Part shown: piece after piece, positions 7,204 through 27,458 of the stretch
Position numbering within the stretch: position 1 is the stretch's first letter
Layout: each line of letters begins with the position of its first letter
DNA from: Janthinobacterium agaricidamnosum NBRC 102515 = DSM 9628
GTDB lineage: Bacteria > Pseudomonadota > Gammaproteobacteria > Burkholderiales > Burkholderiaceae_D
Direction: 5' to 3'
Length of the DNA stretch: 29,657 nucleotides
Assembly (NCBI RefSeq): GCF_000723165.1
Contig: NZ_HG322949.1
Span: forward strand, 3,365,687-3,395,343
Notes under the pieces: model-generated
The model's database searches: none
The model's input: only the letters and a program-made list of their open reading frames with translations
Told to the model about the DNA's origin: nothing
Translations under genes and position numbers: made by a program

Positions 7204-9282
7204 CTAGAACCGCGAATTCAAGCCCAGCCACAAGCGCCGGCCCTCATCCACCAGCCAGTTGCCGTTGATGGTGGCGCGCGGCCGGCGGTCGACGTCGACC
7301 ACCTTGTCGCTGGCGTTCAGCAGCGAGGCGTTCAGCGTCAGCGTCTTGCTGATGTTGTAGGTCGCGCCGAGGTCGAAGGTGGTGGCGCCCGGACGCGTGC
7401 GCACGCCGGCGCCGCCATTGCGGTACGCGGCCCAGAACTGTTCGCTGACAACGTTGACGCGCACAAACGACGACAACGCGTCGGCCGGCTGCCAGTCCAG
7501 CTTCAGGTTGGCCGCATGTTTGGGCGTCTTGTCCAGCGGCTGGCCTTTCAGGGAACTGCCGTTGAACGCCATTTCGCCGTCGCTTTCGCGCCTGGAATCG
7601 GTGTAGGTATAGTTACCCGACAACTTCCACGCCTTCGTCAACGGCACTGTCGCGCCGAATTCGAGACCGCGGAGATTCACCTTGGCGATATTGTTGTAGG
7701 TGTACAAAGGCAAGCCGGTCAAGGGATCGTTGCGACCCGCATAGTCGCTGACGATCTTGTCCTTGAAGTCGTTATTGAACACCGTCACGCTGGCGCTGAC
7801 GCCGTCCGGGGCGTCGTAGCGCAAGCCGATTTCCTGGTTGACGCTGGTTTCCGCCTTCAAGTCCGGATTGCCGTACAAAATGCCCGGCATCGACGTCGGG
7901 CCGCCGCTCGAAATTACGTGATCGGCGGAACTCTGGCGCAGGTTGGGCGCGCGGAACGCCTTGGCGACGCCGCCGCGCAAGGTCAGCAGCGGCGACAACT
8001 GGTACACCGCATAGGCGCGCGGATTGACATGCCGGCCATACTTGTCGTCGTGATCCAGGCGCAGGCCGCCGGTCAGCGACAGCTTGTCGGTGACGAAATA
8101 CTCATCCTCGGCGAACAAGGCCCACGACTTGCGCGTGATCGACGCCGGATTGACATGCGTCAGCGGGGTCTTGCCGATGCGGGCCGGACTCTCGGCGGCG
8201 GTGCCATCAAGTTCATTATGCGCATACTGGCCGCCGATTTTCAGGATATTGCTGGTGAACGGCAGCATCGCCTGCGCATCGAGCAGGGTGTTGGTGATCT
8301 TCGGGTTCGACGATGACGCTGCAAAGCCCGCCGGGCCCAGCGTCTTGCTGCTGGCCTTGCCGATTTCCTGATACAGGCTGAGGTCGGTATTGCCGAAAGC
8401 CCAGCGGCCGGCATGGCTGGCCGCCCAATGCGTGCGGGTGTCTTCCGGTACCGTCTGGCTATCGCCGGCCGCCAGCGTTTTACCCGGCGTATAAGTACGT
8501 TTCAAGCGTTCCTGGCCCGCTTCCAGCGTGATGTCCTGGTTGCCGGCCGGCTTGATGGCCAGCTTGGCGCCCAGCGAGCTGGTGTCGGTGCGGGCGGTGC
8601 CGTCGATCACCTGGTCTTCCTGGCGCTGGTTGACGCCGCCATACAGTTGCAGGCCGACCACGTCGTCCTTGAGCGGTCCGGCAAAATAAAAGTCGCCCTG
8701 GTATTGATTGCCCAGGTTGGAGCGGTCTTGTTGGATGGTGCCGGCATTGAGCGCCCCACCCCAGGTTTTTGCCACTTTGCGCGTGATGATGTTGATCACG
8801 CCGCCGATCGCATCGGAACCGTACAGCGACGACATCGGACCGCGCACCACTTCGATGCGCTCGATGGCCGCCAGCGGCGGAATCAGGCTGGACTGGATGC
8901 CGCCGGTGCCGCGCGAGCTGGTTTCGCGGGTGCCCTGGCGCTTGCCGTCGACCAGGATCAACGTGTATTCGCCCGGCATGCCGCGAATCGAAATGTCCTT
9001 GGCGTTATTGTCGCCGCCGACGATGCTGACGCCTTCCAGATGGCTGACGGCGTCCTGCAAATTGCTGAACGGCTGCTTTTCGAGCTGCTCGCGGGTAATC
9101 ACGGTAATCGACGCCGGCGCTTCCTTGATCTGCTGTTCGTAGCCGCTGGCGGTGACCACCACCTCTTTCAAGGCAATTTCGCGCTCGGCCGGCGCCGCGA
9201 CGGCGGCCGGCACGACGCCGCCGCACAAGGCCGGCAATGCCAGCGCATATTGCATGGTACTTTTTTTCAACGTCAACTTCAT
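7204..9282 (-). CDS. TonB-dependent ferric-catecholate siderophore receptor (FepA/BfeA/CirA-like)
   Basis: A 692-residue outer-membrane receptor. A signal peptide (MKLTLKK..., ending AVAAPAE) is followed by the TonB box KEVVVTAS (about 39-46). The plug domain spans about 50-170, with SNLQDAVSHLEGVSI, SIRGMPGEYTLILVDGKRQ and VVRGPMSSLYGSDAIGGVINII. The rest is a 22-strand-type beta-barrel with FRAPNLRQSS, a LYGNPDLKAETSVNQEIGLRY-like region, and a terminal phenylalanine (LWLGLNSRF), as needed for barrel insertion. It should import the ferric form of the siderophore made by this locus. AAGGGAG precedes the ATG. It is the last gene of the minus-strand run, 86 nt after entA, so it may be read through from upstream or have its own AT-rich promoter in that gap. 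Confidence 0.9.
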   Translation of the reverse strand: MKLTLKKSTMQYALALPALCGGVVPAAVAAPAEREIALKEVVVTASGYEQQIKEAPASITVITREQLEKQPFSNLQDAVSHLEGVSIVGGDNNAKDISIRGMPGEYTLILVDGKRQGTRETSSRGTGGIQSSLIPPLAAIERIEVVRGPMSSLYGSDAIGGVINIITRKVAKTWGGALNAGTIQQDRSNLGNQYQGDFYFAGPLKDDVVGLQLYGGVNQRQEDQVIDGTARTDTSSLGAKLAIKPAGNQDITLEAGQERLKRTYTPGKTLAAGDSQTVPEDTRTHWAASHAGRWAFGNTDLSLYQEIGKASSKTLGPAGFAASSSNPKITNTLLDAQAMLPFTSNILKIGGQYAHNELDGTAAESPARIGKTPLTHVNPASITRKSWALFAEDEYFVTDKLSLTGGLRLDHDDKYGRHVNPRAYAVYQLSPLLTLRGGVAKAFRAPNLRQSSADHVISSGGPTSMPGILYGNPDLKAETSVNQEIGLRYDAPDGVSASVTVFNNDFKDKIVSDYAGRNDPLTGLPLYTYNNIAKVNLRGLEFGATVPLTKAWKLSGNYTYTDSRRESDGEMAFNGSSLKGQPLDKTPKHAANLKLDWQPADALSSFVRVNVVSEQFWAAYRNGGAGVRTRPGATTFDLGATYNISKTLTLNASLLNASDKVVDVDRRPRATINGNWLVDEGRRLWLGLNSRF

Positions 9283-9368
9283 GTTATAGAACTCCCTTGC
9301 AGTTTGGATGAATATCTTTTTAATACATTTTTATGAATCCAGGCCCGCTCCAGCCGAGCCCAGATGAG

Positions 9369-10157
9369 CTAGGCGCCGAGCGTGGCGCCGCCGTCCACGC
9401 ACAGCTCATGCATCGTGATATGGCGGGCCCGTTCGGACGCCATGAACATGACGGCATCGGCGATGTCGGCGGCATCGGCGATGCGGCGCAGCGGGATGCC
9501 GAGCCGGAACTGCTGCAGCGACCCGTCGATGATCGCCTGCTTGTGGGCGTCGCTGGTCCATAGCTGGCGCTGCATCGCGGTATCGGTCGATCCCGGCGAC
9601 ACCACGTTGCAGCGGATGCCGTGCGGCGCCAGTTCCAGTCCCAGGCAGCGCGTGAAATGCGCCGACGCCGCCTTGGACGCGGCATACGCCGCCATCTGCT
9701 GGCGCGGCACCGCCGACGCGTTCGACGCCACCGTGACGATCACGCCGCGCCGGCGCGGCACCATGCGGCTGGCGACGGCCCGGCACAGGCGGAACACGCC
9801 GCCGACATTGACGCTGAAGGTCCGTTCCCAGTCGGCGTCGCTGCAATCGAGCGCGGCGCCTGGCCGCAAGATGCCGGCGGCATTGACCAGCACTTCCACC
9901 GGTCCCAGCTCTTGCTCGACGCGCGCCACCGCCGCGTTCACCGCCGCGCTGTCGGCCACGTCGACCGCCAGCGCCAGCAGCGGCGCGCCGCTGCCGGCCA
10001 GCGCCTGCGCCTGTTGCTCCAGCGCGGCCGGCTGGACATCGAACAGCGCCAGCCGGGCGCCCTGCAGCGACATCGCCTGCGCGACCGCCGCGCCGATGCC
10101 TTGCGCCGCGCCGCTAATGAGCACGACCTTGCCTTGAAATTCCATATGACGTTCCAT
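9369..10157 (-). CDS. entA: 2,3-dihydro-2,3-dihydroxybenzoate dehydrogenase
   Basis: A 262-residue short-chain dehydrogenase that oxidises 2,3-dihydro-DHB to 2,3-dihydroxybenzoate with NAD+. The Gly-rich cofactor motif (ISGAAQGIG, about 14-22), the NAAG motif (about 87-90), the catalytic YAASK (about 156-160) and the PGSTDTAMQ loop are present. The first ATG (10157) overlaps the stop of fepC as TAATG and follows AAGGAAAG, so I prefer it over the internal ATG four codons later, which matches the usual family start. The assignment as EntA rather than a generic SDR rests on the surrounding entB/C/E genes and on overall similarity. It is separated from entCEB by the NRPS and transport genes, unlike the E. 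coli order. Confidence 0.9.
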   Translation of the reverse strand: MERHMEFQGKVVLISGAAQGIGAAVAQAMSLQGARLALFDVQPAALEQQAQALAGSGAPLLALAVDVADSAAVNAAVARVEQELGPVEVLVNAAGILRPGAALDCSDADWERTFSVNVGGVFRLCRAVASRMVPRRRGVIVTVASNASAVPRQQMAAYAASKAASAHFTRCLGLELAPHGIRCNVVSPGSTDTAMQRQLWTSDAHKQAIIDGSLQQFRLGIPLRRIADAADIADAVMFMASERARHITMHELCVDGGATLGA

Positions 10158-10984
10158 TACTTTCCTTGATTGATTAATCTGAGCTGGCGGGATTGCTCCA
10201 GCGGCGCCGCCGGCACCACCACCGGCGCGCCGTCGCCCGGCGCCGACAAGACGTCGGCGTCGACTTGATACAGTTGCCGCACCAGTTGCGGCGTGACGAT
10301 CTCGCGCGCCGCGCCGCTGGCCAGCACCCGGCCGTCGCGCAGCGCCACCAGCGTGTCGGCATAACGCGCCGCCGCCATCAGGTCGTGCAGCACCATCACC
10401 ACGCCGCGTCCGGCCGCCGCCAACTGGCGGATGCGGTTGAGCACATCGACCTGGTGGCCCAGGTCGAGCATGCTGGTCGGCTCATCGAGCAACAGCAGCG
10501 GCGTCTCTTGCGCCAGCACCATCGCCAGCCAGCAACGCTGGCGCTGGCCGCCGGATAACTGTTCCAGCGGACGCTGCGCCAGCGCCGTCACATCGGCCGC
10601 CTGCATCGCCTCGCGCACCGCCCGTTCATCGTCGGCCGACCATTGCCGCAGCAAGCCCTGGTGCGGATGGCGGCCATAAGACACCAGGCCGGCGACGCTG
10701 ATGCCTTCCGGCGCTTGCGGCGCCTGCGGCAGCAAGGCCAGGCGCCGCGCCGCCTGCTGCGGACGCATCCGCCACAAGTCGTCGGCCCCGAGCCGAACGC
10801 TACCCTGGCTCGGCTGGTGCAGCCGCGCCATGCAGCGCAGCAAGGTCGACTTGCCGCAACCGTTGGGGCCGACGATCACCGTCACCTTGCCCGGCTCGAT
10901 GGACAAATCGATGCCGTGCAATACCGGCGTTTTTTGATGGCAGGCATGCAGATCCCGCACCGTCAGTGTCTGTTGATCCTTCAT
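10157..10984 (-). CDS. fepC: Ferric-siderophore ABC transporter ATP-binding protein
   Basis: A 275-residue ABC ATPase of the FecE/FepC type. Walker A GPNGCGKST (39-47), Q-loop LLPQ, signature LSGGQRQR (143-150), Walker B LLLLDEPT (163-170) and switch His200 are all intact. It would energise the FepDG permease at the inner membrane. I chose the ATG at 10984, where TGATG overlaps the fepG stop by one base and AAGGAA sits six bases upstream. A GTG one codon earlier is possible. Its own stop overlaps the entA start. Confidence 0.95.
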   Translation of the reverse strand: MKDQQTLTVRDLHACHQKTPVLHGIDLSIEPGKVTVIVGPNGCGKSTLLRCMARLHQPSQGSVRLGADDLWRMRPQQAARRLALLPQAPQAPEGISVAGLVSYGRHPHQGLLRQWSADDERAVREAMQAADVTALAQRPLEQLSGGQRQRCWLAMVLAQETPLLLLDEPTSMLDLGHQVDVLNRIRQLAAAGRGVVMVLHDLMAAARYADTLVALRDGRVLASGAAREIVTPQLVRQLYQVDADVLSAPGDGAPVVVPAAPLEQSRQLRLINQGK

Positions 10985-12060
10985 CACATTTCCTTGTTCC
11001 GCTCACTCAGTAACAGCCACAGCAGGAAAGGCCCGCCCAGCAGGTTGCAAATCACGCCGACCGGCAATTCGGCCGCGCTCAGCAGCACCCGTCCCAGCGT
11101 GTCGGCGCCGCTCACCAGCAAGGCGCCGACCAGCGCCGCGCTGAACAAGGCGATGCGGCCGCCGCCGACCAGCCGTTCGGCGACAAACGGCGCCGCCAGC
11201 GCGACAAAGGCGATCGGCCCGCACACGCCGACCGCCAATCCCGCCAGCAGCACCGCGGTCAGCAGCGCCTGCCACTGGGTGGTCCTGACCGGCAGGCCGA
11301 GGCTGCCGGCAATCTCCAGGTCGAAGCGCAGCAGCGCCAGCCGCCGGCTGCACAGCAACGTCAGCGGCAGCAACAGCAGCAAGCCGGCCGCCAGCGGCGC
11401 CGCGGCGGCGTATCCACGGCCGTTCAGGCTGCCGATGCTCCATGCATACAGCGCGCTGGCGTGCATCAGTTCCTGGCGCGACAACGCCAGCTCGGTCACC
11501 GCGCGCAACAGGCTGGCCAACGCCAGGCCGACGATCAGCAGGCGCTGGCCGCGCCGTCCCAGGTTGCCGGCAGCGATCAGCAACAGCACGACCGCGCCCA
11601 GCGCGCCCAAGGGGCCGACCCACCACGGACCGAACATGCCGCTGGCGCTGCCGATCAGCGCGACGAACACGCCCAGCGTGGCGCCGTCGGCCACGCCCAG
11701 CAAATCCGGCGTCGCCAGCCGGTTGCGGGTCAGGGCCTGGACCAGGCAGCCGGCCAGCCCTAGCGCCATGCCGGCCAGCAGACCGACCAGCAGCCGCGGC
11801 AAACGGAATTCCAGCACCAGCAATTGCATGCCCGGTGCGCCCTCGCCGCGCAGCAGCGCCAGCAATTGCTGCGGCGAAATCCAGCTCGAACCGGCCATCA
11901 GGCCCAGCCCGACAGTCGCGGCCAGCAACAGGCACAGGACGCCGGTCACCCACAGCGAACGGCCGGCATACAGCAGCGAAACACCGCCGCGCCGCCATGC
12001 ATGCAAGCCAGGCTCCAGCGGCGCCGGCAGCTCCTTGCTTACGGCAAACGGCGCGCTCAC
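10984..12060 (-). CDS. fepG: Ferric-siderophore ABC transporter permease, FecCD family (second subunit)
   Basis: About 358 residues with many hydrophobic helices, typical of FecCD/BtuC permeases. Family landmarks include LRLPRLLVGLLAGMALGLAG-like RLPRLLVGLLAG (about 87-98), ALTRNRLATPDLLGVADGA, the central YAWSIGSLNGRGY, and GPIAFVALAAPFVAERLVGG near the C-terminus, the region that contacts the ATPase. I prefer the GTG at 12060 because it overlaps the fepD stop as GTGA and is preceded by GGAG at 8 nt. A GTG seven codons earlier is the alternative. It is longer at the N-terminus than FepD, with a cytoplasmic extension before the first helix. Confidence 0.9.
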   Translation of the reverse strand: MSAPFAVSKELPAPLEPGLHAWRRGGVSLLYAGRSLWVTGVLCLLLAATVGLGLMAGSSWISPQQLLALLRGEGAPGMQLLVLEFRLPRLLVGLLAGMALGLAGCLVQALTRNRLATPDLLGVADGATLGVFVALIGSASGMFGPWWVGPLGALGAVVLLLIAAGNLGRRGQRLLIVGLALASLLRAVTELALSRQELMHASALYAWSIGSLNGRGYAAAAPLAAGLLLLLPLTLLCSRRLALLRFDLEIAGSLGLPVRTTQWQALLTAVLLAGLAVGVCGPIAFVALAAPFVAERLVGGGRIALFSAALVGALLVSGADTLGRVLLSAAELPVGVICNLLGGPFLLWLLLSERNKEM

Positions 12061-13100
12061 AAGGCCGCTCCGCTGTGCCACGCCTTCGAGCGCGCCAGCC
12101 AGATCAGCAGCGGCGCGCCGGCCAGCGCGGTCATCACGCTGATCGGCGTTTCAAACGGCTGCACCGCCAGCCGCGCCGCCAGGTCGGCGGCCAGCAGCAA
12201 GGCCGCCCCCAGCCACGCGGCGGCCAGCAGTTGCGGCGCCAGGCCGGCCTGGCGCACCAAAAAACGCGCCAGGTAAGGCGCCAGCAAGCCGAGAAAGCCG
12301 ATCGGCCCGGCCAGCGCCACCGCGCTGCCGGTCAGCAAGGTGACGCTGGCCGCGACGCCGAGCCGCACCGGCAGCGGCCGGTGTCCCAGCGAGCGGGCCA
12401 TGTCGTCGCCCAGCAGCAGCGCCGACAGCGGGCGCACCAGCAGCAGCGCGCAAGCGCCGCCGGCCAGCACCACCGGCGCGGTCCACAGCACCATGTCCGG
12501 CGTGATGCCGGCCAGCGAACCGAGCACCCAGAAACGGTACTGGTCGTAACCGGCCGGCTGCGACAGCAGGATCGCCGAGCTGATGCCGATGAAGGTGGCG
12601 CCGAGCGCGACGCCGGCCAGCACCAGCCGCAGCGGCGCCGCGGCGTGGCGGCCGGTCTGCGCCACGGCCAGCACGCAGGCGTTGCCGAGCAAGGCGCCGA
12701 GTCCGGCCCACAGCAGATAGGCCGGGCCATTTTCGGCGCCGGCCCAGGCGATCCCGACCACCACGCCCAGCGCGGCGCCGGCATTCACGCCAAGCAGGCC
12801 GGGTTCGGCCAGCGGGTTGCGGGTCACGGTCTGCATCAGCATGCCGGCCAGGCCGAGCGCGGCGCCGACCAGCAGCGCCGCCGCCATGCGCGGCAGGCGC
12901 AGGCTCAGCAGCACCATCCGCACTTGTCCATCGGCGCGCGCGCCGGCGTCGCCCAGCACAAACGCCAGCGCGCGTGCCGGTTCGAGGTCGCCGGCGCCGG
13001 CCAGCAGCGAGGCCAGCGCCAGCGCCGGCAGCGACAACAGCAAGGCCAGCAGGCAGGCCCGGCGCGGCAGCGGACGCGCTAGCGCCCGCTGCACAGACAC
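12057..13100 (-). CDS. fepD: Ferric-siderophore ABC transporter permease, FecCD family (first subunit)
   Basis: A 347-residue FecCD-type permease with about ten predicted membrane helices. Typical segments are LRLPRMAAALLVGAALGLAG-like RLPRMAAALLVG (about 67-78), QTVTRNPLAEPGLLGVNAGA, FWVLGSLAG, and GPIGFLGLLAPYLARFL, the coupling-helix region. The start is a GTG at 13100. A second GTG two codons on has a better-placed GGGG, so the exact start is uncertain. It is 48 nt after fepB and overlaps fepG by 4 nt. It should pair with FepG as a heterodimer. Confidence 0.9.
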   Translation of the reverse strand: MSVQRALARPLPRRACLLALLLSLPALALASLLAGAGDLEPARALAFVLGDAGARADGQVRMVLLSLRLPRMAAALLVGAALGLAGMLMQTVTRNPLAEPGLLGVNAGAALGVVVGIAWAGAENGPAYLLWAGLGALLGNACVLAVAQTGRHAAAPLRLVLAGVALGATFIGISSAILLSQPAGYDQYRFWVLGSLAGITPDMVLWTAPVVLAGGACALLLVRPLSALLLGDDMARSLGHRPLPVRLGVAASVTLLTGSAVALAGPIGFLGLLAPYLARFLVRQAGLAPQLLAAAWLGAALLLAADLAARLAVQPFETPISVMTALAGAPLLIWLARSKAWHSGAAL

Positions 13101-13148
13101 CCCGCGCGGCAGCCGTCAAACACTGTCAAGGATAAGGTCATGATGGCC

Positions 13149-14084
13149 TCAAGACTTGTCGAGCATGGCTTTTTCGATGTCGTTCAAGACCTCCAGCGCC
13201 GCCAGCGGACCGCCGGGGCTGGTCCACAGCGTGCCGTCGACCGCCACCATATGGCCCTTGCGCACCGCGCCCAGCTGGCGGAAAGCGGGACTCTGGCGCG
13301 CCGCCGCCAGCGCGTCGTTGGCCTGGCTGGTATTGAGCGTGCCGACGAACAGCCAGTCGGCGTCGATGCGCGGCAACGCTTCCAGGCTCAACGGCGGCGA
13401 ATGGGCCACCCCGGCCTGCATCTGCGCCGCCGGCCGGCGCAATTTGACGTCGGCCAGCACCAGGCTGGCGAAGGCGTCCTTCAGCATGTAGGCCGGCCCC
13501 TGCGGATTCCAGCGCACCACGCTGACGGTGCTGTCGGCCTGTCCGCCCAGCCGGGCGCGCACGCTGTCGGCGCGGCGCTGATAGGCGGCCAGCACCGCTT
13601 CCGCCTCGGCGTCGCGGCCGACCATCGCGGCGATGCGGCGCAGCGCCACTTGCCAGCTTTCGCCCTGCCGGTAGCTGACCGCCGTCGGCGCGATCTTGCC
13701 CAGTTGCGCCAGCAATTGCGGGTCGGGCATGCTGCCGACCAGGATCAGGTCCGGCTGCGCGGCGATCACCAGGTCGAGCACCGGGCTGCCGAAGCCGCCG
13801 ACGCTGGCGATGCCATGGACGGCGTTGCCGAGGTAGCGCGGCATCGCGGCCTGGCCGCGGCCATTGGTCGCGCCGACCGGCTTGAGCTTGAGCGCCAGCA
13901 GCGAATCGAGGTCGATCTCGGACAGCGCCAGCACGCGTTGCGGCTGGGCCGGCAACAGCACCGTGCGGCCGGCCGCGTCGACCACGCTGCGCCCGGCGGC
14001 CACGGCGGAAAAAGACAGCAAGGCAAGCGCCAGCGCCAGCAATGCAGTACGTATCATCGAAATCGGGTGATGGCTGGAATTCAT
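13149..14084 (-). CDS. fepB: Periplasmic ferric-siderophore-binding protein
   Basis: A 311-residue class III periplasmic binding protein (FepB/FhuD/BtuF fold). A signal peptide is clear: a short polar n-region, MIRTALLALALALLSFSA, then an AVAAG cleavage region. No lipobox cysteine follows, so the protein should be free in the periplasm. The mature part has VVDAAGRTVLLPAQPQRVLAL-type opening residues, DLVIAAQPDLILVG, and a terminal WTSPGGPLAALEVLNDIEKAM, as usual for the family. It should carry the ferric siderophore from the receptor to FepDG. The start ATG overlaps the stop of the SIP gene (ATGA). Confidence 0.9.
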   Translation of the reverse strand: MNSSHHPISMIRTALLALALALLSFSAVAAGRSVVDAAGRTVLLPAQPQRVLALSEIDLDSLLALKLKPVGATNGRGQAAMPRYLGNAVHGIASVGGFGSPVLDLVIAAQPDLILVGSMPDPQLLAQLGKIAPTAVSYRQGESWQVALRRIAAMVGRDAEAEAVLAAYQRRADSVRARLGGQADSTVSVVRWNPQGPAYMLKDAFASLVLADVKLRRPAAQMQAGVAHSPPLSLEALPRIDADWLFVGTLNTSQANDALAAARQSPAFRQLGAVRKGHMVAVDGTLWTSPGGPLAALEVLNDIEKAMLDKS

Positions 14085-14968
14085 GGTGTGGTTTCCTCGA
14101 TGTTGGGGGTGGGGGCGGCGGCGTCTTCGGCCAGTTCGAACGCATCCATGATGCGGTGCCGCTCGGCGTGATAGGCCTCTTCGGTGTGTTCATCCTTCCA
14201 GTAAGGCACCGCGTACATGGCGCGGCGCGGCACGCCGCGCTCCTTCAGCAGGTATTCGCGCAGCAGCACCGTTTGCGTGCTTTCGCCGGCCAGCGTCACC
14301 GAGACCGGGCCGGCCGGCCAATCGAGCGCGCGCACCTGCTCCAGCAGCAGCGTGCTGGTCCCGGCCGGCGCGCCCTGGCGCGACAGCCAGCGCACGGCAA
14401 TGCCGGGCGGATGGCGCAACGGCTGGATTTCGCCGGGATCCGGCACTTCGATCAGCGCGTCGCCGCGGGCATCGGCCGGCAAGGCGCGCAGCACCGCCGC
14501 CAGCGCGGCGAACGCGCTCGGATCGCCCAGCAGCAGGTAATAGCCGGCCTGCGGCAGGAAGCGCGGCGGCCCGCCCGGTCCGGCCACCCCGACCGCCGTG
14601 CCGGGCACCGCATGCAAGGCCCAGCTGGACGCCGGGCCGTTATCGCCATGCAGCACGAAATCGATGTCCAGCTCGCCGGCCGCGGCGTCGTGGCGGCCTA
14701 CCGTGTAGGTGCGCGCGATCGGCCGCACGTCGTCGGGCGGCCACACCGGGCCGTCCGGCCCCAGCGTCGGCAAGACCGGTTCGGCCTGGCCGGGACGCGG
14801 CAGCAGCAGCTTGATGTGGGCGCCGTCGCTATGCGGCGGGAAGCCGGCCAAGGCCGGGCCGGCCAGCGTGATGCGCCGCATATGCGGCGTCAGTTGCAGC
14901 GTGCGCCGCACGCGCAGCATGCGCGGCGGCGTGCGCGCCGGTGCGCCGGTCGCAGGGGTGTCACTCAT
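14081..14968 (-). CDS. Siderophore-interacting protein (SIP/ViuB-type FAD ferric reductase)
   Basis: A 295-residue protein of the SIP family. The FAD-binding beta-barrel holds the motif RTYTVGRHD (about 86-94) and the family segment DFVLHGDNGPASSWA (about 103-117). A NAD(P)H-binding-like C-terminal domain follows (YLLLGDPSAFAALAAVLRALP, then TLAGESTQTVLLREYLLKERG). Such proteins (ViuB, YqjH) reduce Fe(III) from catecholates in the cytoplasm without breaking the ligand. This is informative here because no Fes-type esterase is seen in the locus. The start ATG overlaps the NRPS stop (ATGA). Confidence 0.9.
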   Translation of the reverse strand: MSDTPATGAPARTPPRMLRVRRTLQLTPHMRRITLAGPALAGFPPHSDGAHIKLLLPRPGQAEPVLPTLGPDGPVWPPDDVRPIARTYTVGRHDAAAGELDIDFVLHGDNGPASSWALHAVPGTAVGVAGPGGPPRFLPQAGYYLLLGDPSAFAALAAVLRALPADARGDALIEVPDPGEIQPLRHPPGIAVRWLSRQGAPAGTSTLLLEQVRALDWPAGPVSVTLAGESTQTVLLREYLLKERGVPRRAMYAVPYWKDEHTEEAYHAERHRIMDAFELAEDAAAPTPNIEETTP

Positions 14969-17900
14969 GGTCTGGTCTCCTCATCGTCTTGTTTCGTCAT
15001 CGATTGAAGGCTCAGGCGCCTGGCCAGTTCGCGGCCGATATGCGCCAGCGGCGCCGGCCGGCTCATGCCGATATGGGTGCTGTCGATATCGACCCGCTCC
15101 ATGCGGCCGTGCACGTACGGCCGCCAGCCCAGCCAGTCGGGCGCGTCCGGCGCGCGCCGCGCGGCGTGGAAAAACAGCAGGTCGCCATGGTAGGGCCGGT
15201 GCTGCAGCTCGCGGTACTGCAGCATGCCGTGCAAGGCGCTGTCCAGCAGCCGCGCGATGCGCGCCTGGCCGGCCGCCGCCAGCGTGCTGTCCGGCTGCTG
15301 GAAACGCGCCAGCATGGCCTGTTCCGGCAACGGCTGGCCGTCGGCGTCGAGCGGCGACGCGCCGATCACGTCCAGCAAGGTCAGCAAGGCGTCGCGCCGC
15401 TGCGGCAACGGCTTGCCGTGCCAGATATCGCTGGGATAGGCATCCATCATCGCCAGCATGCCGACCTGCTCGCCGGCCGCCTGCAGCCTGACCGCCAGGG
15501 CATGGGCGATGCCGCCGCCGGACGACCAGCCCAGCAAGTGGTACGGCCCGTGCGGCTGCGCGCCGCGCAGCAGCGCCAGGCAGGTCACGACCTGCCGCTC
15601 CACCGACGCCGGCAGCGCGCCGCTGATGCCCTGCGCCTGCAAGCCGTAGATCGGCGTGTCCGGCAATTGCATGGTCAGGCCCAGGTAGCACCACGCCAGC
15701 CCTTCGGCCGGGTGCACGCAGAACAGCGCCGGCCCGGCGCCGCGCTGGATGGTCAGCAACGGCGCAAATTCCGCGCCGGCCTCGGCGGCGGCCGGCGGCG
15801 GCGCATGGCCGTCCAGCGCACCGAGCGCCTGCGCCAGTCCGGCCACCGTGCGGTGGCGGAACAGCGCCGATACCGCCACTTCGCGTTGCAAGGCGATCCC
15901 GAGCCGGTTGGCGGCCTGGATCACTTGCAGCGACTTGCCGCCCAGCGCAAAGAAGTCGTCCGAGCGGCGCAGCGCGCCGACGCCCAGCACGTCGCGCCAG
16001 ACCGCCATCACGGCCTGTTCCAGCGGGCTGGCCGGGCCGTCCGGCTGCGGCGCCTGGTGCGCCGCGTCCAGCGGCAACGCGGCCAGCGCCTTGCGGTCGA
16101 TCTTGCCGTTGGCGTTGCGCGGCAATTGCGGCAAGGCCAGGTAAGCGGCAGGCAGCGCGGCGGCGGCCAGGCGCTCGGCCAGGAAGGCCCGCAACTCCGC
16201 CGGCTCCGGCGCCGGCAAGGCGGCGTCGGCCACCAGGCAGGCCAGCAGCCGCTTGCCGCCGTCGGCCAGTGCCTGCGCCACCACCGCCGCTTCACGCATG
16301 CCGGGGTATTGCAGCAAGGCCGCTTCGATTTCCAGCGGATCGACGCGGTGGCCGCTCAGCTTGAGTTCATCGTCGAGCCGGCCCAGGTAGCGCAACTGGC
16401 CGTCATGGCCCAGCAGCACCCGGTCGCCGGTACGGTAAGCGCGCCGCGCGCCGCCCGCTTCGCCGGCCAGTTCCAGCTGCACGAAACGCTGCGCCGTCAA
16501 CGCCACGCGGCCCAGATAACCGCGCGCCAGCGCTCCGCCAAGCAGGCACAGTTCGCCTTCCACGCCGAATCCGACCGGACGCAGGCTGGCGTCGACCACG
16601 GCCACCGCCACGCCCGGCAAGGGCTGGCCGATCGGCACCGCGTCGCCGTCGAAGGCCAGCGCTTGCGGCCCGGCCAGCCGCGCCGTGGTGCAAATCACCG
16701 TCGCTTCGGTCGGGCCGTAGGTATTGAGCAGCACCACGTGCGGCGCCACCGCGCCGCGCCAGCGCGCCACCCGTTCCGCCAGCGCCGCCTCGCCGCCGAT
16801 GATCAGCAGCCGCACGCTGTCCGGCAAGGCCGCCTCGTGCCGGCTGATGCAAAAGGCCAGCTCGTGCCAGAACGCGGTCGGCAAGTCCAGCACGCTGATG
16901 TGCAGCCGGGCGCACGCCTGCAGAAAACGCGGCAGCGATTCCAGCATGGCGTCGTTGCGCAGGATCAGGCTGGCGCCGTTGCACAGGCTCACAAAAATCT
17001 CTTCGACGCTGGCGTCGAAATGCAGCGGCGCGAACTGCAGCACCCGGTCTTGCGCCGACATCTGGTAGCGCAGCGTGGCGCCGGCCACGAAATGCGCCAG
17101 CGCGTCGCGGCCGATCATGACGCCGTTCGGCCGGCCGGTGGAGCCGGAGGTATAGATCACGTAGGCCAGCGCATCGGCGGCGACGGCAACCGGTTCCTGC
17201 ATTGGCGCCGGCACGGCGGCGGCGTCATCGTCGAGGCACAGCAGCGCCAGTCCGGCGCCGGCCTTGGCGGCATGGCGGCGCAGCGTCAGCACCAGCTGCG
17301 GCCGGGCGTCTTCCAGCACGGCGGCGATGCGCAACGGCGGACCGTCCGGATCGAGCGGCACATACCCGGCGCCGGCCCACAGGATGGCCAGCAAGGCCGC
17401 CACCGTCTCCGGCGCGCGCGGCAACAATAGCACCACCCGGCTGTCCGGCCGCACGCCGCGTTCGCGCAACTGGGCCGCCAGTTGCCGCACCCGCAGCAGC
17501 AGTTCGGCATAGGTCAGCGTCGCGCCGTCCTGCTGCACGGCCAGCCGCTGCGGCGTCTCGGCGGCGTGCCGGCGCAACGCGTCCAGCACCGCTTCCGGCG
17601 GCTGCGCCAGCCTGGCGCCGGCCAGCAGCGCCGGCGCCGCCGCGTCCGGCATCAATGGCGCCGCGGCGTCGTGCGCCGGATCGGCCAGCAACGCCAGCGT
17701 CGCCAGCAAGCCGGCGTGCAGCGTGGCCAGCGTGGCACTGTCGTAGGCGTCGGGATTGGCGTCGAAATCGAGCCGCACGCCGTCCGGCCCGGGCGCCACC
17801 ACGATCGACAGGTCTTCCACCGGACCGGCCGAGACCGGGTGCGCAAGCGCCGCCAGGGCGCCGAATACCAGCGGCCGGTCGAACGGCATCAGGTTGACCA

Positions 17901-18960
17901 CCGCGCCGAACAGGCGCCGGCTGCCGTCGCCGAGGCCGAGGTCATGTTTCAAATGTTCATAACGGTAGCGCTGGTGCGGCCGCAACGCGCGCATGTCGGC
18001 GGCGACCTGCTGCGCCAGCCGGCCCAGCCCGGTATCGCGCCCGATCGGCACATGCAGCGGCACGATATTCATCGCCATGCACGGCACGCCCAGCGACACG
18101 GAGCCGAGCCGTCCCATCACCGGCAAGCCCAGCGTCACTGCGCCGGCGCCGGTCTGGCGCTGCAGCCAGGCGGCGATGGCCGCGATCAGCCAGGCGCTCC
18201 AGTCGACCCCGGCGGCGCCGGCGGCGGCCTGCCATGCCGCCAGGCTGGCGGCCGGCAAGGTGTGGCGCAGGCGGCGCACGCCATGCGCCACCGGCCGGGC
18301 CGGCGCCAGCAACACCGGCGCCGGCGCGTCCTTCAGGCGCGCGCACCAGAAATCGCGGTCGCGCGCGCGGGCGGCGGAAACCTGGTACAGCCGGTCTTCG
18401 GCGATCACCGGTTCCAGCGCGCCCGGACGCGGCGGCGGCGCCGGCCGGCCCGCCGCATTGGCCGAATACAGGTCGGCCACGCGCTGCGCCAGCAAGGCGT
18501 AGCCGAAGCCGTCCAGCGCAATATGATGGACGCGCAGGTACCACAGCGTGCGCGCCGCGCCCAGCGTCAGCAGCGCGCTGCCGAACAAGGGCCCGGACCG
18601 CAAGTCCGCAAGCTGCAGCAGGTCGGCCTGGATCCAGCGCTGCGCCGCGTCGAACGGCGCCGCGGCGGCGCTGAAATCGAGCCGTTCCAGCGCCCAGCCG
18701 CGCTCGGCGGCCGGGGTTTGCCACACTTGCGCGCCGTCGCTGGCGTAACGCTGATGCAAGGCGTCGCATTCGGCCACCGCCTGGCGCAGCGCCGCGTCGA
18801 ACGCGGCCGCATTCAGCGCGCCATGCAATTCCACCGTTTCGGCGGTCCAGTAGGCCGGACTGGCGGGATCGAGCTGCTGGCCCAGCCAGATGCCGTACTG
18901 CGCGGCCGACAGCGGCAGCGCGGCCGCCTGGGCCGGGCGATCCTGGTGCGGAATATCCAT
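14965..18960 (-). CDS. Single-module NRPS (C-A-PCP-TE) for a catecholate siderophore
   Basis: 1331 residues. The condensation domain (about 15-440) has HHIALDG at 145-151. The adenylation domain (about 460-960) has [12 protein letters not shown] (603-614), NTYGPTE (746-752), YRTGD (842-846) and NGKIDRKAL with Lys953. The carrier domain (about 980-1045) has LGGKSL with the phosphopantetheine Ser1010. The thioesterase (about 1070-1320) has GWSSG with Ser1146, candidate Asp1173 and His1296. Architecture and length match EntF, but aligning to GrsA gives the pocket D649, A650, E653, D692, I720, G722, T747, V755, I756, K953. This is unlike the serine code of EntF (DVWHFSLVDK). Acidic E653 and D692 suggest a basic amino acid (inference). 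The A3 lysine of PKG is replaced by Asn612, and the A8 region ([15 protein letters not shown]) is unusual. It starts one base after the entB stop. Confidence 0.93.
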
Positions 18961-18961
18961 C

Positions 18962-19846
18962 CTAGTTGCCCCGCGCCTGGGTCAGCAGACTCCACCAGTC
19001 GGCCAGCGTCGGCTGCTCGGCCAGGTCGACAAACGTCAGGCTGGAACCGGCCCGGCGCCAGCGTTCGACCAGGCTCATCAAACGGATCGAATCCAGCCCG
19101 GCATACAGCAGGTGATCGCCGGCCCGCAAATCGCTGGACGGTATCTGCAGCAGCTGCGCGACCTCGGCCTGCAGCGCTTCCAGGCTGGCCGGCAGCGCGC
19201 TGGCCGGTTGCGGCCGCAGCGCCGCGATCACGTCCTGCGCGGCGCTGACCACGCCGCAGCGCTGCGACACATAATCGAGCGCCATCGCATGCTGTTCGGC
19301 CGAGAAATCGGCCAGCGCATCGCCGACCAGGAAAGGCTGGATGTCGTTCATGAACGCGTCGGCGCTGGTCATCAGGCAGCCGATATGGGCGTACACGCCG
19401 CACACGATCAACTGGTCGCGGCCCTGCGCCCGCATGCGCTGCAACAGGTCGCTGCGCACGAAGGCGCTGTAGCGCCACTTGACCAGCACGGTGTCCTGCG
19501 CGCGCGGCGCCAGCGGCGCCACCACCGGCGCACGGTGCGGCTGCGCGGTCAGGCCGGGGCCCCACCAGTCTTGCAGCAGGCCGCGCTGCTGCGGCGCCTG
19601 CTCCGGCGGCTGCGCGGTGTACACCACCGGCACGCCGGCCGCGTCGCACGCCGCGCGCAGCCGGCCGATATGCTCCAGCAAGGCCGGGATCGGCGCTTCC
19701 TTGCTGTCGTAAAAATCGAGGAAATACTCTTGCATGTCATGGATCAGCAGCACGGCCCGCGCCGGGTCCGGTTTCCAGTCGACCCGGTTGGAAGGCATGG
19801 CGCCGGCGGCCGGCATCGGATAGGAAGCGATTCTTGGAATAGTCAT
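18962..19846 (-). CDS. entB: Isochorismatase with C-terminal aryl carrier domain
   Basis: A 294-residue two-domain protein. Residues 1-210 are the isochorismatase, which hydrolyses isochorismate to 2,3-dihydro-DHB and pyruvate. Asp37 (LLIHDMQEYF), Lys123 (VLVKWRYSAF) and GVYAHIGCLMTSADAF match EntB/DhbB closely, at the same numbering as E. coli EntB. Residues about 220-290 are an aryl carrier domain with LLYAGLDSIRLM, where Ser253 would receive phosphopantetheine and then DHB from EntE. The start MTIPRIASYPMP matches the family. No good Shine-Dalgarno precedes it, and an in-frame GTG 16 codons upstream, close to the entE stop, is the alternative. No phosphopantetheinyl transferase gene is present in the window. 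Confidence 0.95.
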   Translation of the reverse strand: MTIPRIASYPMPAAGAMPSNRVDWKPDPARAVLLIHDMQEYFLDFYDSKEAPIPALLEHIGRLRAACDAAGVPVVYTAQPPEQAPQQRGLLQDWWGPGLTAQPHRAPVVAPLAPRAQDTVLVKWRYSAFVRSDLLQRMRAQGRDQLIVCGVYAHIGCLMTSADAFMNDIQPFLVGDALADFSAEQHAMALDYVSQRCGVVSAAQDVIAALRPQPASALPASLEALQAEVAQLLQIPSSDLRAGDHLLYAGLDSIRLMSLVERWRRAGSSLTFVDLAEQPTLADWWSLLTQARGN

Positions 19847-19903
19847 CGGGAGGTCTTTATCGGTAAATGGCTGAAAAGGTTGAAAGGTTGGCACTGGCGG
19901 CGC

Positions 19904-21556
19904 TCAGGCGGGGCGGCCCGCCTGCGCCAGGGTTTGCGCGATGCGCTCGCGCAGCACGCGCTTGTTGACCTTGCCGACCCCGGTCATCGGGAAACGGTCG
20001 ACGAATTCGATCCGGTCGGGAATCTTGTAATGCGCGATGCCGCGCTCGCGCAGGAAACCGGCCAGCGCCATCGCGCCCGGCGCCTCGCCGCGCGCAATCA
20101 CGAAGGCGCAGCTGCGCTCGCCGAGATAGGCGTCCGGCATCGCCACCAGCGCGGCGTCATGCACGTTCGGATGCGCCAGCAAATGGTTTTCAACTTCATC
20201 GGCGGCCACCTTGTCGCCGCCGCGGTTGATCTGGTCCTTGGCGCGCCCTTCCACCACCAGGTGGCCGGACGGCAGTTGCGACACCAGGTCGCCGGTGCGG
20301 TAAAAGCCGTCGGCGGTGAAGGCGCGCGCATTGTGCTCGGGCGCCTGGTAGTAGCCGCGGATGGTGTACGGGCCGCGCGTCAGCAAATGGCCGACCGCGC
20401 CGGGCGCCACGTCGCGGTCTTCGTCATCGACCACGCGCACTTCGTCGGCGGCAGAAATCGGCCGCCCCTGGGTCTGCGCGACCAGCGCTTCGCTGTCGTC
20501 GTGACGGGTGTAATTGACCAGCCCTTCGGCCATGCCGAACACCTGCTGCAACGCGCAGCCGAGCACCGGCTGCACGCGGCGCGCCACTTCGGCGGTGAAT
20601 TTGGCCCCGCCGACCTGCAGCAGCTGCAGGCTGCTCAAGTCGTGGCGCCGCTGGCCATTGCCGACCGCGTCCAGCCACACCATCGCCAGCGGCGGCACCA
20701 GCGACGTCAGCGTGACCCGCTCGGCCGCGATCAGCGGGAATGCGTCGTCGGGGCTGGCGCGGCGCGCCATCACCACGCAACCGCCGGCATGCAGCACGCC
20801 CAGCGTGCCGGGCGAACTGAGCGTGAAATTATGTGCCACCGGCAATGCGCACAGATAGATGGTCTCCGGCGTCAATCCGCAGATGTCGGCGCTGGCGCGG
20901 ATGCTGTACAGATAATCGTCGGGCGTGCGCGGGATCAGCTTGGGCAAGCCGGTGCTGCCGCCCGACAATTGCAGGAAGGCGACATCGTCGGCCCTCGGTT
21001 CGGCGAAGGCGCGGGGTTCGTCATACAGGCTGTCGAGCGCACAGAATTCCTGCGCGTCGCCGGCCACGATGACCTGCAGCGCGGTACTGTGCTGCGCCAG
21101 CACCTGGCGCGCCAGCTGGCGGTAATCGAAGCCGCCGTCGGTGTCGGCGATGATGTAGGCCACCGCTGCGCTGTGGCTGCAAAAATAGCCGATCTCGGTG
21201 CGCCGGTGGGCCGGCAGCGCAAACACCGGCACCGCGCCGAGGCGGAACAGCGCGAAGCAGACCGCGAAGAATTCGGCGATATTCGGCAACTGCACCACCA
21301 CCCGGTCGCGCGCGCCGATGCCCAGCCGCGCCAGGCCGGCCGCCAGCTGGTCGCTGCGCCGGTCCAGCTCCGGATAGGTCCAGCGCCGCGCGCCGCATAC
21401 CAGCGCCAGGCGCTCGGGGAATTGCCGCGCGCGCCGGCGCAGCATGGCGCCAAACGTCTCGCCGGTCCAGTAGCCGGCGGCGCGGTAGGCCGCGGCGGCC
21501 TGCTCCGGCCAGGGTGTAAAGCCCGGCAAATAATCGGATGACTCGATTTTAATCAT
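19904..21556 (-). CDS. entE: 2,3-dihydroxybenzoate-AMP ligase
   Basis: A 550-residue stand-alone adenylation enzyme that activates DHB with ATP and loads it on the EntB carrier domain. The ATP loop [15 protein letters not shown] (197-211), the aryl-acid pocket motif [10 protein letters not shown] with Asn243 (the residue contacting the 2-hydroxyl in DhbE-type enzymes), [18 protein letters not shown] (419-424) and the C-terminal TGVGKVNK with the likely catalytic Lys529 are intact. An aryl-acid rather than amino-acid substrate is clear, because the pocket lacks the Asp used to hold an amino group. The ATG at 21556 overlaps the entC stop (ATGA). Confidence 0.95.
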
Positions 21557-22824
21557 GACACTGCCTTTGCATGTTCATACAGTTGTTCGCCGGTTGGTTC
21601 GTCTTCCAGTTGCAGTTCCAGGTTCATCGCCGCCAGCATGGTGCGCAGCTTGGCCGAGGTTTCCAGCAATTCCAGTTGCGGTTCGGAGCCGGCCACGATG
21701 CCGGCACCGGCATACAGCGTCGCGCCGGCGGCGCCCACTTCGGCGCAGCGCAGCGTGACCGCCCATTCGCCGTCGCCGTGGCTGTCGCACCAGCCCACCA
21801 GGCCGGCGAAATAACGCCGGTCGAAGCCTTCCGCCTCGGCGATGAAGCTGGCCGCCGGCGCCGCCGGATGGCCGCATACGGCCGGCGTCGGATGCAGCGC
21901 CAGCGCCACTTCCAGCGAGGTGGTGGCCGGATCGGCCAGTTCGCCGCGCACTTGCGTGCCCAGGTGCCACATGGTGGCCGTCGACAGCAGGCTCGGCGCC
22001 GCCGGCACGTGCAGAGTCTTGCAATACGGCCGCATCGCCGCCGCCACCGCCTCCACCACCAGCGCATGCTCGTGCAAATCCTTGGCCGATTGCAGCAAGC
22101 CGTCGGCACGGCGGCGGTCCTCGGCCGGATCGGCGCTGCGCGGTATCGAACCGGCCAGCGGATGCGAGACCAGTGCGCGGCCGTGGCGCGACAGCAGCAG
22201 TTCCGGACTGGCGCCGATCAGGGTGCGCGGCGCGCCGGCCTGGCCGATGGCGGCCCCGGCCAGGTTGATAGCGAAGGTATAGCCGCGCAGATTGCGCGCC
22301 GCCAGCCGCTGCAGCAAGACCGGCAGGTCGATGCTGGCGTCCAGCGTCAGCGAACGCGACAGCACGGTTTTTTCAAAGCGGGCGGCGCCGATGTCGGCCA
22401 GCGCGCGGCGCACATTGGCACGGTACTGTTGCGGCGTCGGCTGCATCAGCGGCGCGCCCGGCAAACGCGCGCCAGGGTTGCCAAGCGCCAGGCCGGGCCC
22501 GGCGGCCGCGTGGTCGACGCCGGCGCCGCTGGCCAGTTGCCGCGGCAAGTACAGATAGGGCGCGGCGGAACTGCTGTCGAGGCAGAATGGCAGCGCGCCC
22601 ATCAGCACCGCCGGTGTCGCCCGCCCGCCTGCGGCGTCCTTGAGGAAGGCCGCCGCATGGGCCGCGATCCGGCCGGGCGCGCATGGCGGCAGGACGGCTT
22701 GCACGCCGTGCGCCAGCAGCGAGCGCCGGGGCGACGCAAAAAATGTCGCGCCCGCCTGGTAATGCAAGAGCAAATCGGCGGCGCTGGCCTGTTCTGAAAA
22801 TACATGATGAAGCCTGTCGTTCAT
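21553..22824 (-). CDS. entC: Isochorismate synthase
   Basis: About 423 residues of the chorismate-utilising enzyme family, converting chorismate to isochorismate and committing it to DHB. Typical segments run in order: [37 protein letters not shown] sequence ([17 protein letters not shown]), [24 protein letters not shown], and the C-terminal [19 protein letters not shown] with the Mg2+-binding glutamates. I chose the ATG at 22824 ([12 protein letters not shown]), preceded by GAGG at 9 nt. The frame is open 11 codons further. It is the first gene of the eleven-gene minus-strand siderophore run, reading from the iron-type promoter near 23050. Confidence 0.95.
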
Positions 22825-22905
22825 GCTAAGGGTCCTCGCAAGAAATAATGACGGCATGGCGGTCGGCTAGCCTGATGAATGATTACCCTGTCCACTAACG
22901 AGACG

Positions 22906-22967: not shown

Positions 22968-23049
22968 GCTTCCCGCGCTGCATGCGGATCGCATCGGCCG
23001 GGAAGTCGGCACGAGTGAGCGCTGTTTAGGAAAATGCAACTTCGGATTG

Positions 23050-23109
23050 AATTGTAAATGCGAATGAGAGTGATTTGCAATTGATTTATTATTTAAACAC
23101 AATTATTAT
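23050..23109. promoter_or_regulatory. Divergent iron-type promoters with a Fur-box-like operator
   Basis: Plus strand: TTGATT (23081-23086), 17 nt, TATTAT (23104-23109), for the DAHP synthase-exporter pair. Minus strand: TTGCAA (23080-23075), 18 nt, TACAAT (23056-23051), for entC and the rest. Between the minus-strand boxes is GCGAATGAGAGTGATTTGC (23060-23078), resembling the three-hexamer Fur consensus GATAAT-GATAAT-CATTATC at about two thirds of positions. The whole site is framed by an inverted repeat AATTGTAAAT (23050-23059) / ATTTGCAATT (23073-23082), 9 of 10 matching. Fur bound here would block both promoters when iron is plentiful. Confidence 0.6.
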
Positions 23110-23201
23110 TCATGCCAGATGTTCATTTTGCTATGCACCTGGTCCCACCCTACCCCGCAATCCGCGCGCTGCCATGGCAGCCACGCCTACCGAGCCCCGT
23201 C

Positions 23202-24317
23202 ATGAAAAGAGATCAACTTGTGGTCAATGAAGAAAGTTTTTTCAATCTTGCGAGCATCGACTCGATGCCCACGCCGGCCGAACTGCGCGCGCAGTTGCCG
23301 CTCGATGCGGTCGCGGCGCGAACCGTCAGCGACGGCCGCCGCACGGTGCGCAATATCCTGGAGCGGCGCGATCCGCGCCTGCTGGCGGTAGTCGGCCCCT
23401 GCTCGATCCACGATCCCGAGGCCGGGCTGGAATATGCGCGCCAGCTGCGCCAACTGGCGCTCGAACTGTCCGATACGCTGTACATCGTGATGCGCGTGTA
23501 TTTCGAAAAGCCGCGCACCAGCATCGGCTGGAAGGGGCTGATCAACGACCCCGGCATGGACAACACCTTCCGGATCGCCGACGGCATGCGCCAGGCGCGC
23601 AGCTTCTTGCTGGAAGTCAACCGGCTCGGCTTGCCGGCCGCCGCCGAAGCGCTCGATCCGGTGTCGCCGCACTACTTGGCGGAACTGATCAGCTGGGCGG
23701 CCATCGGCGCGCGCACCACCGAATCGCAAACCCATCGCGAAATGTCGTCCGGCCTGCCGATGCCGGTCGGCTTCAAGAACGGCACCGACGGCAGCGTCGA
23801 TACCGCCGTCAACGCGATCTTGTCGACCTCGCACCCGCACTCCTTCCTCGGCATCGACGGCGACGGCCGCACCGCCATCATCCGCACCCTCGGCAACGGC
23901 CACAGCCACCTGGTATTGCGCGGCGGCGGCGGCCGGCCCAACTACGACAGCGTCAGCGTGGCGCTGGCCGAACGCGCGCTGGCCAAGGCCAGGCTGGCGC
24001 CCAACATCGTCATCGACTGCGCCCACGGCAATTCCTACAAGGACCACCGGCAGCAAGCGGCGGTGATGACCGACCTGGCGCACCAGATCCGCCAGGGCAA
24101 CCGCAGCATCCTCGGCACCATGATCGAAAGCTTCCTCGAACCTGGCAACCAGGCCATCCCGTCCGACCTGGCGCAGCTGCGCTACGGCTGCTCGGTGACC
24201 GACGCCTGCGTCGGCTGGAACGGCACCGCCGCGATGCTGCGCGACGCCGCCGCGCTGCTGCGCGACGCGCTGCCGGCGCGCCTCGATGGCGCCACCTGCG
24301 CGACGGGAACCCAATGA
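23202..24317 (+). CDS. Class I 3-deoxy-D-arabino-heptulosonate-7-phosphate (DAHP) synthase
   Basis: 371 residues from the ATG at 23202. It is similar along its length to AroF/AroG/AroH: LLAVVGPCSIHDP with metal-binding Cys67, IVMRVYFEKPRTSIGWKGLINDP, GARTTESQTHREMSSGL, PVGFKNGTDG, a SFLGID region, IVIDCAHGNS, GTMIESFLEPGNQ and the terminal SVTDACVGW. It condenses PEP and erythrose-4-phosphate, the entry step of the shikimate pathway. The frame is open 30 codons upstream, but MKRDQLVVNEESF fits the family N-terminus better. The Shine-Dalgarno is weak. Its position beside the siderophore operon, coupled to the exporter by ATGA, suggests a dedicated isozyme that raises chorismate supply under iron limitation. 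The feedback type cannot be read. Confidence 0.92.
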   Translation: MKRDQLVVNEESFFNLASIDSMPTPAELRAQLPLDAVAARTVSDGRRTVRNILERRDPRLLAVVGPCSIHDPEAGLEYARQLRQLALELSDTLYIVMRVYFEKPRTSIGWKGLINDPGMDNTFRIADGMRQARSFLLEVNRLGLPAAAEALDPVSPHYLAELISWAAIGARTTESQTHREMSSGLPMPVGFKNGTDGSVDTAVNAILSTSHPHSFLGIDGDGRTAIIRTLGNGHSHLVLRGGGGRPNYDSVSVALAERALAKARLAPNIVIDCAHGNSYKDHRQQAAVMTDLAHQIRQGNRSILGTMIESFLEPGNQAIPSDLAQLRYGCSVTDACVGWNGTAAMLRDAAALLRDALPARLDGATCATGTQ

Positions 24318-27415: not shown

Positions 27416-27458
27416 AAATACTTCCATAGTGGTGGTTAAAAAATGTCACGACATGCCG

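Follow-up and report, generated by a model that had tools for sequence, protein, structure and literature searches.

A thioesterase-ending relative of MxcG with a predicted lysine-type pocket in a catecholate siderophore cluster of Janthinobacterium agaricidamnosum

Which siderophore is made by a nonribosomal peptide synthetase (NRPS) that has the domain order of EntF and a substrate pocket unlike that of a serine-activating enzyme? The question is raised by a gene for a protein of this kind on a 29,657-nucleotide stretch of the genome of J. agaricidamnosum NBRC 102515 (hereafter the window, whose numbering is used for all positions unless stated), where it lies among genes for the synthesis of 2,3-dihydroxybenzoate (DHB) and for siderophore transport. 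An initial annotation had proposed a DHB-capped basic amino acid as the product, azotochelin-like rather than enterobactin. The pocket, the DHB genes and kinship with the myxochelin synthetase MxcG agree with that proposal, and the cluster very probably serves to produce, and to take up again, a bis-catecholate siderophore that has a single L-lysine as its backbone, with a bis-DHB-lysine core.

Domains and substrate pocket of the synthetase

The Pfam domain positions give the EntF-like order of condensation (C), adenylation (A), peptidyl carrier (PCP) and thioesterase (TE) domains that had been annotated initially, and the Pfam scan finds no second module or epimerisation domain in the protein (Table 1). 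The AMP-binding matches cover residues 462–816 and, for the C-terminal part, 877–953. The thioesterase match spans residues 1078–1203, and the domain end near 1316 is an estimate. The terminal domain is a thioesterase and not a reductase, as first annotated, judging by the PF00975 match and an intact triad. Upon comparison of the best 120 homologues (window included, from 6730 homologues among 8000 scored candidates), the HHxxxDG motif, the carrier serine S1010 and the triad S1146/D1173/H1296 proved unchanged in all 120 rows, far beyond chance. We preferred the minus frame on its third-position G+C (0.89) and its clear families; plus-strand frame 1 over 14965–18960 contains an internal stop, and the other plus-strand open reading frames (ORFs), none longer than 829 amino acids, overlap the gene.

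Residues D649, A650, E653, D692, I720, G722, T747, V755, I756 and K953 occupy what we take to be the ten pocket positions in GrsA numbering and read DAEDIGTVIK. Their placement rests on core motifs that also align with linear-gramicidin synthetase, and GrsA (1amu) is among the matches. This motif-anchored reading yields the same string as the initial annotation, and the acidic residues that it had singled out at positions 239 (E653) and 278 (D692) are invariant among the 120 homologues, as are positions 235, 236, 301 and 517. D-A-E-D-x-G-x-x-x-K is thus kept in every row; 71 rows, window included, carry the identical code, and the rest vary only at 299, 322, 330 or 331. DAEDIGTVIK is also common among separately collected homologue loci, a set (n = 80) that was gathered with peptide patterns spanning positions 278 and 322 and is therefore biased towards the code.

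As a control, the same procedure applied to another NRPS of the same genome gave DVWHISLVDK, a serine-type code, for its first module and DAMLVGAIIK for its second. Set against the former, the pocket of the window's NRPS is of a non-serine kind, as had been claimed. By contrast, a comparison with myxochelin-type domains, which the initial annotation had suggested, found the Myxococcus code (DAEDIGTVVK) to differ at one position only, and the Burkholderia code (DAEDIGTIIK) is likewise one position away. With the meaning of the code taken from kin, the best reading of the activated residue is lysine rather than ornithine, because these codes are nearly identical and the relatives whose products are known (MxcG and the cepaciachelin synthetases) use lysine. 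The lysine or ornithine first put forward would accordingly narrow to lysine.

Kinship and release domain

The best NCBIfam profile for the NRPS is that of MxcG (NF038078, 1272.7 bits), which matches residues 12–1050, that is, the protein minus its release domain; EntF (NF007605) comes second with 590.7 bits. By the curated cut-offs of NCBI the protein is neither. We built two trees from the C-A-T core (T, thiolation or carrier domain) without the release domain, both on hand-chosen rows: one with FastTree (74 rows) and one with IQ-TREE (36 rows picked from those 74). The FastTree rows comprise 51 loci, 19 of the 120 best proteins, L099 and L100, an upstream NRPS as outgroup, and the window; 53 of the 80 collected loci entered the comparison of release motifs, and L052 and L058 were left off the tree as short. 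For the loci L036 and L073, in which the motif search found no reductase motif, the reductase label was assigned by hand.

The thioesterase forms make up one group with a support of 100 in both trees (36 of 74 rows in FastTree, 26 of 36 in IQ-TREE). This group includes proteins named Azotobacter vinelandii (59% identity over 98%) and Chromobacterium violaceum (52%), as well as five Burkholderia loci on the FastTree tree, three of which are also on that from IQ-TREE. The reductase forms (Myxococcus, Herpetosiphon and actinomycetes) fall outside it. Its neighbour group in FastTree consists of 12 rows without a release domain in the same protein (Aeromonas, Pectobacterium, Photobacterium, Pseudomonas) and two long-branched reductase forms. 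On this sequence comparison, the NRPS is best described as an MxcG relative in which a thioesterase stands in place of the terminal reductase. The thioesterase forms carry GWSSGG, GWSAGG or GWSLGG around the active serine. The GWSLGG rows (Chromobacterium, Burkholderia, Curvibacter and one metagenome protein) cluster together at a support of 100, and the GWSSGG rows do not form a single group. We rejected the two variants as markers of free acid versus putrescine amide, as an Andreprevotia locus with GWSSGG stands beside the GWSLGG group (IQ-TREE support 94).

Among the closest known systems are the cepaciachelin synthetases of Burkholderia ambifaria, Methylophilus sp. 5 and C. violaceum ('chromobactin'), which are likewise one-module enzymes, of order C-A-CP-TE (CP, carrier protein), with a lysine-type pocket. 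According to the parts of PMC13251462 available to us, the clusters of Methylophilus and C. violaceum yield cepaciachelin, the same compound as in B. ambifaria (by inverse isotope labelling and tandem mass spectrometry, MS2), and the corresponding parts of PMC4906002 describe a B. ambifaria cluster that makes cepaciachelin, with an A domain predicted for lysine and putrescine among the fragments. The structure of cepaciachelin is given in PMC5681537, whose accessible text places a TonB receptor, a major facilitator superfamily (MFS) protein, ABC parts and usually a 3-deoxy-D-arabino-heptulosonate 7-phosphate (DAHP) synthase in the cluster, and reports that surveyed genomes of B. multivorans, B. 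stagnalis and B. cepacia LK29 contain it; these three species are also represented among the homologue loci collected here. Judging by these descriptions and by the Chromobacterium and Burkholderia loci collected here, cepaciachelin clusters share with that of the window entC, entE, entB and entA, the receptor, the MFS gene and, in most Burkholderia, the DAHP synthase. They differ from it in gene order, in NRPS identity (46–52%) and in having GWSLGG where the window has GWSSGG. A siderophore-interacting flavoprotein (SIP) gene, present in the window cluster, has no match in five Burkholderia and two Chromobacterium loci.

The A. vinelandii homologue (P0045) resembles the NRPS in its C-A-PCP-TE order, its GWSSGG motif and its place in the thioesterase group. 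In the available parts of PMC10669500, aminochelin, azotochelin and protochelin are the products of that species, its catechol operon includes ABC genes and one for an MFS exporter, and ferric azotochelin is the substrate of a cytosolic reductase. MxcG of Myxococcus and others is 50–52% identical over the C-A-T core, carries DAEDIGTVVK in four Myxococcaceae loci and is adjoined by DHB genes; it ends in a thioester reductase that leads to an aldehyde, alcohol or amine, whereas the NRPS of the window ends in a thioesterase. With EntF the common feature is the domain order C-A-PCP-TE, and the serine pocket and Fes-dependent trilactone belong to EntF only. The layout recurs in clusters of Collimonas, Massilia and Chitinimonas (L015, L030, L124 and L125), which have the same entC-entE-entB-NRPS-SIP order and divergent DAHP synthase and MFS genes; in the two Collimonas-type genomes, the NRPS is 74–79% identical to that of the window.

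Proposed product and its alternatives

In the pathway that we propose, EntC, EntB and EntA would convert chorismate to DHB, which EntE would attach to EntB at the aryl carrier domain. L-lysine, activated by the NRPS, would be loaded on the carrier domain of that enzyme, and there the condensation domain would add a DHB group to each of the two lysine amines. Water would serve as one acceptor when the thioesterase lets go of the bis-DHB-lysyl chain, which yields azotochelin; putrescine or DHB-putrescine is probably an acceptor too, with cepaciachelin or protochelin as the outcome. Export of the siderophore would fall to the MFS protein, the TonB receptor and the ABC system would return the ferric complex, and the SIP flavoprotein would likely free the iron by reduction. 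We infer lysine, double acylation, product and transport roles from kin. Because release would be reductive and the scaffold all amide, a Fes esterase would not be needed. The Fes N-terminal domain (PF11806) has no match in the whole genome, which upholds the absence of Fes noted at the start; nine PF00756 esterase-fold matches lie elsewhere, seven of them above cut-off.

Two of the earlier claims are sharpened by kinship. Where one or two DHB groups had been allowed, we favour two and set one aside, since in its C-A-T core the NRPS sides with enzymes of the MxcG type, and both lysine amines are joined to DHB by MxcG according to the portions of PMC9611931 and PMC8400222 available. The azotochelin-like product stands as a bis-DHB-lysine, but azotochelin itself may not hold as the end product. 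We lean slightly towards a putrescine amide being among the end products, because the product-known relatives in the thioesterase group end in one: cepaciachelin in C. violaceum, B. ambifaria and Methylophilus, and protochelin in A. vinelandii (as described in the accessible parts of the articles above). Against these relatives stands the view that the thioesterase is a plain hydrolase and the free acid azotochelin the only end product. To this we give serious weight, somewhat short of an even chance: the triad is intact, no dedicated amide ligase was found among the Pfam- and NCBIfam-scanned genes of the cluster, and azotochelin is among the known end products of A. vinelandii (PMC10669500) and was detected, as was aminochelin, in Methylophilus (PMC13251462, both in the parts available). 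Either release product, acid or amide, is compatible with the sequence.

How an amide would form is the weakest step. Tentatively, and with some doubt, we suggest that the thioesterase is itself an amide-forming release domain that accepts putrescine or DHB-putrescine as nucleophile, such that one module would yield azotochelin, cepaciachelin and protochelin with no need of a further ligase. Two observations agree with this. Of the neighbouring ORFs that lack a counterpart in the window, 4 of 8 were scanned beside a Chromobacterium homologue (L013) and 5 of 10 beside a Burkholderia one (L019), and no ligase was found among these nine, two of which had no Pfam match. Of the 34 condensation-domain matches in the J. 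agaricidamnosum genome, moreover, a single one falls in a frame shorter than 1000 amino acids, within another NRPS cluster.

The remaining alternatives concern the monomer and the number of acylations. Another basic residue (ornithine, arginine or diaminobutyrate) in a bis- or mono-DHB conjugate would be compatible with the two acidic pocket residues, which suit ornithine too, and codes are not certain between close basic residues; since the near-identical codes of myxochelin- and cepaciachelin-type homologues are linked to lysine, we regard it as improbable. EntF-type thioesterases can oligomerise, and the C-A-PCP-TE order alone leaves the number of acylations unfixed, so that one DHB per lysine, in a mono-catecholate or in a chrysobactin-like oligomer whose units are joined by the thioesterase, might be envisaged. 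This is very improbable, as the core groups with bis-acylating kin and the NRPS lacks a second module or epimerisation domain, unlike the viobactin (cyclic trichrysobactin) cluster, which has an epimerisation domain in the available part of PMC13251462. That the NRPS is an EntF which activates serine through an unusual pocket, and hence has an enterobactin-like product, can be practically dismissed: it would account for the domain order and the second-best profile, but the pocket contrasts with the serine-type code in the same genome, the EntF score is far under its cut-off of 2400, and the Fes N-terminal domain is missing genome-wide.

Several points weigh against a bis-DHB-lysine product as argued here. 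The NRPS lies well under the curated MxcG cut-off (2300 bits). The C. violaceum homologue (P0079) is taken to be the chromobactin enzyme from its one module and lack of an epimerisation domain, and the A. vinelandii homologue would be linked to azotochelin by species name and homology only. The order of sub-groups within the thioesterase group is not the same on the two trees, and we made no use of it. Finally, the Fur-like site of the cluster is weak by consensus (12 of 19 positions). Among the papers listed and the parts available, our search of the open-licence literature on myxochelin, azotochelin, cepaciachelin and protochelin and on the siderophores of Massilia, Azotobacter, Janthinobacterium and Collimonas found no product determination for the window cluster or for those of Collimonas, Massilia and Chitinimonas. 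In the parts of three articles available, a siderophore cluster is listed by an antiSMASH survey for Duganella phyllosphaerae but not for J. agaricidamnosum (PMC5080296), ornibactin-like clusters are described in six Collimonas strains in text from which the word catechol is absent (PMC4690342), and halos of Collimonas on chrome azurol S (CAS) are read as typical of hydroxamates (PMC4911057).

Cluster organisation, distribution and surroundings

On the minus strand the genes read entC, entE, entB, NRPS, SIP, binding protein, two permeases, ATPase, entA and TonB receptor, and all four DHB genes are thus clustered with the NRPS (Table 1). The entE-like gene is the single DHB-AMP ligase above the TIGR02275 cut-off in the whole genome, which holds two phosphopantetheinyl-transferase matches. 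A longer ORF in another frame (13138–14193) that overlaps the binding-protein gene has no NCBIfam or Pfam family match.

Table 1. Positions of the synthetase, its domains and the associated genes in the window, with supporting evidence.
Feature	Position	Strand	Evidence
NRPS, C-A-PCP-TE, predicted lysine-type pocket DAEDIGTVIK, 1331 aa	14965..18960	-	ORF, Pfam, residue check
Condensation domain, residues 14-432, HHxxxDG intact at 145-151	17665..18921	-	Pfam PF00668, 171.3 bits
Adenylation domain, residues 462-953, contains the ten pocket positions	16102..17577	-	Pfam PF00501 + PF13193
Peptidyl carrier domain, residues 982-1046, carrier serine S1010	15823..16017	-	Pfam PF00550
Thioesterase domain, residues 1078-~1316, triad S1146/D1173/H1296, motif GWSSGG	15013..15729	-	Pfam PF00975
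entB-like, isochorismatase + aryl carrier domain	18962..19894	-	Pfam PF00857 + PF00550; no equivalog above cut-off
entE-like DHB-AMP ligase	19904..21556	-	TIGR02275 797.7 bits, cut-off 723.55
entC-like isochorismate synthase	21553..22857	-	TIGR00543 266.8 bits, cut-off 224.75
entA-like 2,3-dihydro-2,3-dihydroxybenzoate dehydrogenase	9369..10157	-	TIGR04316 350.7 bits, cut-off 300
Siderophore-interacting flavoprotein (SIP)	14081..14968	-	Pfam PF08021 + PF04954
Periplasmic binding protein	13149..14084	-	Pfam PF01497 76.6 bits
FecCD permease	12057..13100	-	Pfam PF01032
FecCD permease	10984..12081	-	Pfam PF01032
ABC transporter ATPase, FecE/FepC-like	10157..10987	-	Pfam PF00005; NCBIfam FecE 297.8 bits, under cut-off
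TonB-dependent receptor, nearest IreA/Cir-type catecholate receptors	7204..9282	-	Pfam PF00593 + PF07715; NCBIfam IreA 704 bits, under cut-off
DAHP synthase, divergent, first step to chorismate	23112..24317	+	TIGR00034 454 bits, cut-off 173.2
MFS exporter, best profile MxcK	24314..25513	+	NF038077 233.6 bits, cut-off 525 not reached; Pfam MFS_1
Fur-like motif, divergent entC/DAHP promoter region	23051..23090		Alignment of five intergenic regions

The Fur-like motif in the spacer that separates entC from the oppositely oriented DAHP synthase gene aligns in five clusters: those of the window, the two Collimonas-type genomes, Chitinimonas and Massilia. The window contains ten Fur consensus sites with at least 12 of 19 matches (one with 13, nine with 12), two of which lie between these genes, and simulated sequences (n = 20) contain a mean of 3.5. 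A Fur box on consensus alone was set aside: the entC/DAHP region is A+T-rich, and therefore only the five-cluster alignment makes the site worth naming.

Within the genus, the NRPS gene is present in one of 40 genomes; in the other 39 the best match is 39% identical and falls over a generic NRPS. By a hand count over 294 sampled genomes of the family, with scores for two candidates in each, 15 (the J. agaricidamnosum genome among them) hold a single MxcG-profile match above 1000 bits, none of them above the cut-off, and one more genome (G238) has two half matches. In two of the 15, both of one genus (Collimonas-type), the part of the cluster bounded by the MFS gene and entA is colinear, with longest blocks of 83% and 77% DNA identity; in the second (G197), the NRPS is identical over the aligned core to a protein named Collimonas silvisoli. 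The G+C content is 69.5% in the cluster (7204–25513) and 60.2% in the remainder of the window. This high G+C, the presence in a single genome of the genus and the colinearity in the two Collimonas-type genomes make horizontal transfer between fungus-associated relatives a fair guess; differential loss might explain the pattern instead. An aromatic aminotransferase, a 4-hydroxyphenylpyruvate dioxygenase and an Lrp-type regulator stand next to one another at 1985–5022, and the three are also neighbours in two further genomes of the genus. Examined as empty sites, these two genomes share that flank and show no clean junction, the rest of 17 kb in each having no match to the window or adjoining stretches.

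Two further window ORFs on the minus strand, 25595–27427 (610 amino acids) and 276–1646 (456 amino acids), have third-position G+C of 0.78 and 0.84 and no Pfam, NCBIfam or PADLOC match. The end of the window (27500–29657) is A+T-richer, with 52–58% G+C per kb from 27 kb on; six ORFs of at least 90 amino acids lie or start beyond 27 kb, and the three scanned with Pfam gave no match. About 18 kb before the window, from contig position 3339919 on (plus strand), lies the NRPS that served above as control and outgroup, a two-module protein of order C-A-T-C-A-T-reductase with the serine code DVWHISLVDK in its first A domain and DAMLVGAIIK in its second. It scores 831.6 bits against the MxcG profile, as do, at similar values, matches in two family genomes (G197 and G208). 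We considered it as a partner enzyme and did not count it in the pathway. The genome holds at least four further large NRPS regions, at 192–225 kb, 1.52–1.54 Mb, 1.90–1.92 Mb and 5.63–5.65 Mb.

The cluster is thus a clear additional member of an already-known kind of system. Because thioesterase and reductase forms of the family part on the trees, the release chemistry would be largely predictable from sequence, the choice between acid and putrescine amide excepted.

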